Under the pieces are notes generated by a model, which ran no database searches, had not been told where the DNA came from, and saw nothing but the letters and a program-made list of their open reading frames with translations. The translations under genes were made by a program, and so were the position numbers. From Massiliimicrobium timonense (GTDB lineage: Bacteria; Bacillota_I; Bacilli_A; Erysipelotrichales; Coprobacillaceae): a stretch of DNA of 49,326 nucleotides. Location: assembly GCF_002160865.1 (NCBI RefSeq), contig NZ_NFLJ01000022.1, forward strand, positions 1 to 49,326, given 5' to 3'. Positions 22,307 through 23,215 of this stretch are shown here, piece after piece. Position 1 is the first letter of the stretch, and the number at the start of each line of letters is the position of its first letter.

Positions 22307-22437
22307 GCAAAAAGAAGGTACAAGGGGAAGTACCTTCTTCTTTTGGGGTTTACCAATATTAGGAATATAACTTCGATAACTTACATCTATTTTATATGGG
22401 GAGGAAAAATAGAGGGGAAAGTGTAAGTTATCTGTAT
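22307..22437 (-). ncRNA. Candidate C-rich-motif regulatory RNA or bioY 3' UTR RNA
   Basis: Read on the minus strand, GATAACTTACA (22432-22422) pairs perfectly with TGTAAGTTATC (22385-22375). Inside it TCTATTTT (22413-22406) pairs with AAAATAGA (22393-22386). The unpaired bulge reads CUUUCCCC (22421-22414) and the apical loop UCCUCCCCAUAU (22405-22394). A terminator hairpin follows (22339-22312) with loop UUCCCCUU. An ACCCC also lies between them. All C4 runs fall outside stems in an otherwise AT-rich sequence. No clear promoter is seen, so it may be processed from the bioY transcript. No known RNA family is assigned. Confidence 0.4.
22312..22339 (-). terminator. Terminator of bioY / candidate RNA
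   Basis: AAGAAGGTAC and GTACCTTCTT arms (10 bp) with an 8-nt loop; on the minus strand it is followed by TTT then GCGTTTTC. Confidence 0.8.
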
Positions 22438-22465
22438 ATATGTTTGACTAATTTTTGAGTATTAT

Positions 22466-23026
22466 TCATTTTTTTATGATTTTTTTTAGTCTGTTAACAC
22501 ATAGAAAAGAAAGAGCAATTTTGATAAGATCAGGAATTATAAATGGAATCACACACCATCCTAAAACAACTGATAATGCAACTGGTCCTGTTGTTTGTGT
22601 ATAAACCATCATAAACCAGAATGTGCCAAAGCTATAACAAATCAATAAACCAATAAGCATTGAAATGATAAAAATGAAATGACGGTTTCCAAATACACTT
22701 TCGATAAACCACATAAATAATGCAGAGAATAGAAAACCGATAATATACCCACCACTTGTCCCTAGAATAGCTCCTAGTCCACTAGAAAAACTCGCAAAGA
22801 CAGGGATGCCTATGATTCCTAATAAAATATAAACAAATATAGCTATTGTAGCTCTTTTGCCTCCAAGTAAACCAACAGTTATAAAAATACCCATTGTCTG
22901 TAAAGTAAAGGGAACTGTTGCAGGAATAGCTATCCATGAACAAATAGCAATAAAAGCTGCAAACAGACCTATATAGACAATATCTTGCACTTTATGAATT
23001 TGTGAAACTGATTTTATATTTTCCAT
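22466..23026 (-). CDS. bioY: Biotin transporter BioY (ECF S component)
   Basis: This 186-residue membrane protein has about six helices and the BioY pattern VPFTLQTMGIFITVGLLGG, then YILLGIIGIPVFASFSSG and LGTSGGYIIGFL. BioY binds biotin and works with the shared ECF module (EcfA, EcfA', EcfT), which is not in this window. AAAGGATGG precedes the start on the minus strand. No biotin synthesis genes are nearby, suggesting a salvage lifestyle for this vitamin. It is monocistronic and flanked by structured non-coding DNA. Confidence 0.92.
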   Translation of the reverse strand: MENIKSVSQIHKVQDIVYIGLFAAFIAICSWIAIPATVPFTLQTMGIFITVGLLGGKRATIAIFVYILLGIIGIPVFASFSSGLGAILGTSGGYIIGFLFSALFMWFIESVFGNRHFIFIISMLIGLLICYSFGTFWFMMVYTQTTGPVALSVVLGWCVIPFIIPDLIKIALSFLCVNRLKKIIKK

Positions 23027-23109: not shown

Positions 23110-23215
23110 AACAAAAATGAAGATTCCTATAAGAATCTTCATAAAAAATATTAAAAATGGGAGAGGGAAAAATATTATTTTATAAGTGAGAATTATGTTT
23201 TTATATCGCCTCCTT
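23110..23215 (-). ncRNA. Weak candidate small RNA upstream of bioY
   Basis: A strong terminator hairpin (ATGAAGATTC / GAATCTTCAT, 23142-23117, then TTTTTGTTTT on the minus strand) has no gene to terminate. The preceding minus-strand sequence contains UUUUUCCCUCUCCCAUUUUU (23174-23155), again a C-rich unpaired stretch. It also has an isolated AAGGAGGCGAT site with no start codon at proper distance. No firm promoter is seen. It could be a small RNA or a decayed small gene. Confidence 0.3.

Follow-up and report, generated by a model that had tools for sequence, protein, structure and literature searches.

The window, that is, the whole stretch of DNA analyzed here (49,326 nt of contig NZ_NFLJ01000022.1, Massiliimicrobium timonense), carries a small RNA gene of about 125 nt on the minus strand, running from its start to its terminator at positions 22309-22433. 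The RNA starts right behind bioY (PF02632), on the same strand, and it forms a block conserved in more than 30 genomes.

Fold, conservation and distribution of the RNA

The stretch 22309-22433 (minus strand) folds with a minimum free energy of -35.0 kcal/mol, compared with a mean of -13.2 kcal/mol for shuffled sequences (z = -8.26; none of 200 shuffles equaled it). A wider stretch around the RNA folds with z = -6.1. The hairpin opens with the 5′ arm of an outer stem, P1 (GATAACTTACA, 22422-22432), whose 10-bp core was kept in all 28 distinct alignment rows. C-rich motif 1 (CUUUCCCC, 22414-22421), near-invariant in the alignment, forms an internal bulge, and the 5′ arm of the inner stem P2 (UCUAUUUU, 22406-22413) leads to an apical loop (UCCUCCCCAUAU, 22394-22405) that holds C-rich motif 2 with its near-invariant CCUCCC core. 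The fold and the alignment both place the 3′ arms of P2 (AAAAUAGA, 22386-22393) and P1 (UGUAAGUUAUC, 22375-22385) after the loop, as they do the 5′ arm of P2. Then come a linker (22343-22374), in which AGUUAUAUUCCUAAUAUUGGUAAACC is conserved in the alignment, and a predicted intrinsic terminator (22309-22342) with a 13-bp stem, the loop UUCCCCUU and a U run. All these parts lie on the minus strand.

The fold reproduced the 11-bp outer stem, the bulge, the 8-bp inner stem and the apical loop that the first-pass annotation had described. The terminator stem that it placed downstream is present with its loop, but 13 bp are predicted (22342-22309) and not 10. Its statement that all C4 runs are unpaired was slightly overstated: it holds for both hairpin motifs, but ACCCC is partly paired (UUGG/CCAA) in the minimum-free-energy fold. 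This third C run is not conserved among relatives.

Both C-rich hairpin motifs are near-invariant across about 30 loci, while the flanks diverge. Pairing in P1 and P2 was retained in about 97% of the alignment cells, with nearly invariant sequence. Because the stem sequences are so invariant, covariation supports the stems almost not at all; the single double-sided pair change (C-G to U-A, in genus g12) does not exceed what shuffles give. The hairpin is supported by its fold energy and its conservation, not by covariation. The terminator stem varies in sequence among genera and retains its pairing. Comparison of the genomes shows the predicted gene, its boundaries and the exposure of its conserved C-rich motifs. 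Loss of both the stems and the C-rich loops in relatives, which had been named as grounds against the proposal, is not what we found; related genomes keep both.

In most genera, the linker segment AGUUAUAUUCCUAAUAUUGG, within 22343-22374 (minus strand), equals the C-rich motifs in its degree of conservation. One copy of the Thomasclavelia group (L030 1460-1567, genome G007) has lost the apical CCUCCCC loop and kept the outer stem, motif 1, the linker and the promoter. A protein-coding function was rejected, as the only ORFs in the region are of 20-28 aa, at chance level, and indels among relatives are out of frame. A repeat or mobile element was also rejected, the stretch being single-copy in its own genome. 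No Rfam family matched the window.

Searching 60 relatives at the DNA level recovered the block from many genomes within the family, often at 85-95% identity over about 140 nt and in differing surroundings. At least 26 related genomes contain a single copy of the RNA each, and the genera that carry it include Massilimicrobiota, Thomasclavelia, Candidatus Stoquefichus, Longibaculum and Beduini. The family is Coprobacillaceae as grouped by the genome tool; the NCBI taxonomy has Thomasclavelia in Coprobacillaceae and Massilimicrobiota (as Massiliimicrobium) under Erysipelotrichaceae. The covariance-model match in the window covers 22359-22433 (minus strand). With model R1, the RNA was detected in 32 family genomes (31 clear; G031 weak, 31.5 bits), and nothing convincing turned up outside the family among 295 genomes of the order. 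Across 392 genomes of the phylum, model R2 also gave no convincing match outside the family; two other matches had E values of about 0.04. A weak model match in G239 turned out to be an unrelated terminator-like inverted repeat.

Genomic setting and promoter

In most other genera, the neighbors of the RNA are hslO (Hsp33) and dusB, both in the opposite orientation, with no bioY, and in yet other genomes it sits at further, different places. Release from the bioY 3′ end was one of two origins that the first-pass annotation had allowed. Since other genera have the RNA between hslO and dusB without bioY, we reject this origin. The window's copy does lie directly behind bioY on the same strand, as would be expected if the RNA were merely the bioY 3′ untranslated region with a terminator. 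Elsewhere, however, there is mostly no adjoining bioY, a divergent dusB lies upstream, and the RNA has its own conserved promoter, which makes this explanation extremely improbable. Read-through from bioY is possible for the window's genus only. The position of the upstream boxes is fixed relative to the RNA and not relative to dusB; where dusB is the direct neighbor, it is 73 to about 280 nt off. Its own predicted promoter and terminator and the conserved exposed C-rich motifs favor the other origin: the RNA appears to be a free-standing small-RNA gene that moves as a unit.

A forespore-type promoter is predicted at 22439-22468 (minus strand), with the -35 box TGAATA (22468-22463), a 17-nt spacer and the -10 box AAACATA (22445-22439). 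The -35 box overlaps the bioY stop codon. The sites were scored in the 75 nt upstream with a matrix trained on 15 SASP promoters of family genomes, the RNA loci being excluded from training. In 29 of 31 loci, the best site fell at one offset, 5 nt before the first stem; L011 and L025 were the two exceptions. Across the RNA loci the pattern is TGHATA-17 nt-nAnnHTA. The upstream regions have mostly diverged, yet TGTATAA recurs in them. SASP genes (PF00269) of the same genomes have promoters of the form TGAATA-17 nt-CAAACTA and variants, with the same spacing as the RNA boxes, and these SASP boxes match the sigma-G consensus of Bacillus. Many Thomasclavelia copies of the RNA have CATACTA or CATAATA as the -10 box; the window's AAACATA is weaker than CATACTA and alone gave a shuffle p of 0.05. 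The main promoter argument, and a strong one, is the common offset across loci, and by this comparison the predicted promoter is of the forespore sigma-F/G class. The earlier finding of no clear promoter was right for sigma-70-type sites, as a housekeeping sigma-70 promoter has no good site in place, but it missed the forespore-sigma promoter at 22468-22439 (minus strand).

Nearly all of the family's SASP leaders (L120-L136) have an inverted repeat, GACACAAACTAATTGTGTC, over the -10 box and directly before a perfect Shine-Dalgarno sequence, AGGAGGTGA. The repeat is possibly a 5′ hairpin or an operator.

As the predicted promoter resembles those used only inside developing spores, the RNA is probably a sporulation regulator. 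We surveyed 37 genomes of the family, scoring sigma factors of clear forespore or mother-cell type and SASP by PF00269. All 27 genomes that have both a forespore sigma factor and SASP carry the RNA (26 clear; G031 weak, at a contig end), and none of the 10 that lack them does. The draft genome G208 (72% complete) has SASP and gave no RNA match. A SigA tree implies about four changes of the spore-forming state, two of them forced by well-supported branches. Because forespore genes were lost only about two to four times on the tree, the independent support for the co-occurrence is limited, and a sign test could not reach significance. Judged by comparison of the genomes, the RNA is confined to spore-formers within Coprobacillaceae. 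In the sister family, G041, G052 and G057 have strong spore sigma factors, yet no PF00269 match, which is odd for spore-formers.

Proposed role and target search

We consider it probable that the gene specifies a stand-alone, trans-acting forespore RNA, dependent on sigma-F/G, whose C-rich motifs pair with and mask G-rich Shine-Dalgarno regions. From the promoter class we infer transcription in the forespore, where sigma-F and/or sigma-G would transcribe the gene from 22468-22439 (minus strand). Transcription would end at the intrinsic terminator, for a length of about 125 nt. The two stems of the RNA would form a rigid hairpin that presents CUUUCCCC in the bulge and UCCUCCCC in the apical loop. 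By analogy with other C-rich RNAs, these motifs may base-pair with G-rich Shine-Dalgarno regions at the ribosome-binding sites of forespore mRNAs, and the pairing would lower translation or stability of the mRNAs, as C-rich RNAs such as RoxS do.

C-rich region 3 of RoxS binds a ribosome-binding site (PMC4409812). Like the Coprobacillaceae RNA, RoxS/RsaE (RF01820) has exposed C-rich regions, for which pairing with ribosome-binding sites was either proposed or demonstrated (PMC4409812). In Bacillus it is controlled by ResDE and is not forespore-specific, unlike what the promoter class suggests for the Coprobacillaceae RNA. Unpaired C-rich motifs and a terminator are what would be expected of a member of the RsaE/RoxS family, but RF01820 had no match at 22309-22433, the promoter is of the forespore type and the architecture is another one. 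That the RNA belongs to this family is hardly credible. Bvs196 of Bacillus velezensis is a forespore-specific sRNA under sigma-F/sigma-G (PMC9147052). It has 294 nt and lies between hinT and ecsA; the Coprobacillaceae RNA resembles it in its predicted forespore control.

We searched 12 genomes for complements of the motifs before ATG. The complement of motif 2, GGGGAGGA, pointed to no widely shared gene and no sporulation gene, only to small clusters (three related genera share an ABC-transporter lipoprotein, and two share PTS IIC). Sites for the complement of motif 1, GGGGAAAG, were located in the 12 genomes and their genes were identified in part. No target conserved across the 12 genomes was found by this search. 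In Massilimicrobiota and the genera close to it, SASP leaders (AGGAGGUGAAAG) can pair with motif 1 save for a single mismatch, and this pairing is among the best 7-8% of 110 ribosome-binding-site windows. It is not strong in Beduini or Thomasclavelia. The PTS EIIC leader at 19.3 kb, which the first-pass annotation had suggested as a target, is unexceptional, offering no more than an AAGGGAG site of average pairing.

A forespore RNA might also bind or sequester a protein, not mRNAs, with the invariant stem and linker as the binding site. P1 and AGUUAUAUUCCUAAUAUUGG are conserved like the C-rich loops, beyond what simple seed pairing needs, and a conserved mRNA target was not found. Unpaired C-rich motifs are, however, what marks RoxS and other RNAs known to act by pairing, and nearly all species retain both motifs. 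We regard protein binding as unlikely and favor the pairing of the C-rich motifs with Shine-Dalgarno regions.

A second C-rich RNA candidate lies between dusB and bioY, at about 23117-23215 (minus strand), and is also found at L009-L016. In relatives, it lies between dusB and bioY or between dusB and the first RNA. It has a candidate extended -10 box at 23231-23217 and a putative terminator at 23142-23117, both on the minus strand. AGGAGGCGATA is conserved at its 5′ end and the segment UUUUCCCUCUCCCA is invariant. The latter was predicted as a hairpin loop on a variable stem in three of five sequences of the Massilimicrobiota group; in the window copy it is unpaired outside a hairpin in the lowest-energy fold. 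RF01820 scored 17.9 bits on the second RNA (23114-23183; cut-off 79), which is at chance level.

Comparison with CsfG

Among known RNAs, CsfG of Bacillus comes closest; it is made in the forespore and has C-rich loops. CsfG is conserved among spore-forming bacteria, and a 2021 paper still described both its targets and its role as unknown (PMC8216469). It resembles the Coprobacillaceae RNA as a single small RNA of spore-formers with unpaired C-rich motifs and a terminator. The class and spacing of its forespore promoter, GTATA-17 nt-CATACTA, are common to the promoter predicted for the Coprobacillaceae RNA, and ACUUAC-n-UUUCCCC is shared by the two. They differ in location, since CsfG lies beside rsmD-coaD and the Coprobacillaceae RNA between hslO and dusB. 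The main C-rich stretch also differs in place: it follows the hairpin in CsfG, whereas it forms the apical loop in the Coprobacillaceae RNA.

CsfG genes were collected via RF00516 (ylbH element), which models the opposite strand and matched in 41 of 41 Bacillus-group genomes. Their promoter spacing equals that of the Coprobacillaceae RNA, and they contain the strings ACUUACGUUUCCCC and UUUCUCCUCUCCC. Both rsmD (ylbH) and coaD were present at all 30 Bacillus-group CsfG loci checked and at L146, L038 and L150; rsmD-coaD was found at none of the loci of the Coprobacillaceae RNA. In Coprobacillaceae, RF00516 gave only chance-level matches (best 19.8 bits; cut-off 50), as in unrelated control genomes, and R2 found no CsfG gene. 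Pairwise local alignments of the RNA with CsfG had p values from 0.002 to 0.93, and most pairs were not significant. The best pair was L027 and L145 (p = 0.002). In some pairs ACUUAC-n-UUUCCCC is followed, about 8 nt on, by UUCCUCC. A below-cut-off CsfG lies at L150 1400-1541 in the sister-family spore-former G041, beside rsmD-coaD and with the promoter TGTATA-N17-AATGCTA. RF00516, which models the wrong strand, misses copies such as this one.

Because the covariance models fail both ways and the locations differ, membership in CsfG is not established. The RNA could still be a true but diverged orthologue of CsfG, one that moved away from rsmD and now has its second C-rich motif in the loop of the hairpin. 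The promoter class is the same and tightly placed, the ACUUAC-n-UUUCCCC and UUCCUCC strings are shared in some pairs (p = 0.002 at best), and the sister family has CsfG at rsmD-coaD (L150) while the Rfam model finds nothing convincing in Coprobacillaceae. Against this, R2 misses the CsfG genes and RF00516 misses the Coprobacillaceae RNA, most pairwise comparisons are insignificant (p 0.01-0.9), and both location and architecture differ. We see true orthology as possible but doubtful. By promoter and motif display, the RNA would work like CsfG; it lacks the model and synteny features. It may be a remodelled, relocated counterpart of CsfG.

Tentatively, Coprobacillaceae may have lost or replaced an ancestral CsfG at rsmD, with the relocated, differently built RNA doing the same forespore task. 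If so, endospore formation across Bacillota would require a C-rich RNA in the forespore, and the second tandem C-rich RNA may act together with the first. A further RNA, from gut spore-formers, that has the promoter class and C-rich display of CsfG, and another build and location, would allow comparison to reveal which motifs and targets matter. The RNA loci also offer a testable model for forespore promoters in Coprobacillaceae. Since spores are thought to be how such anaerobes survive outside the host, a forespore regulator would bear on their persistence.
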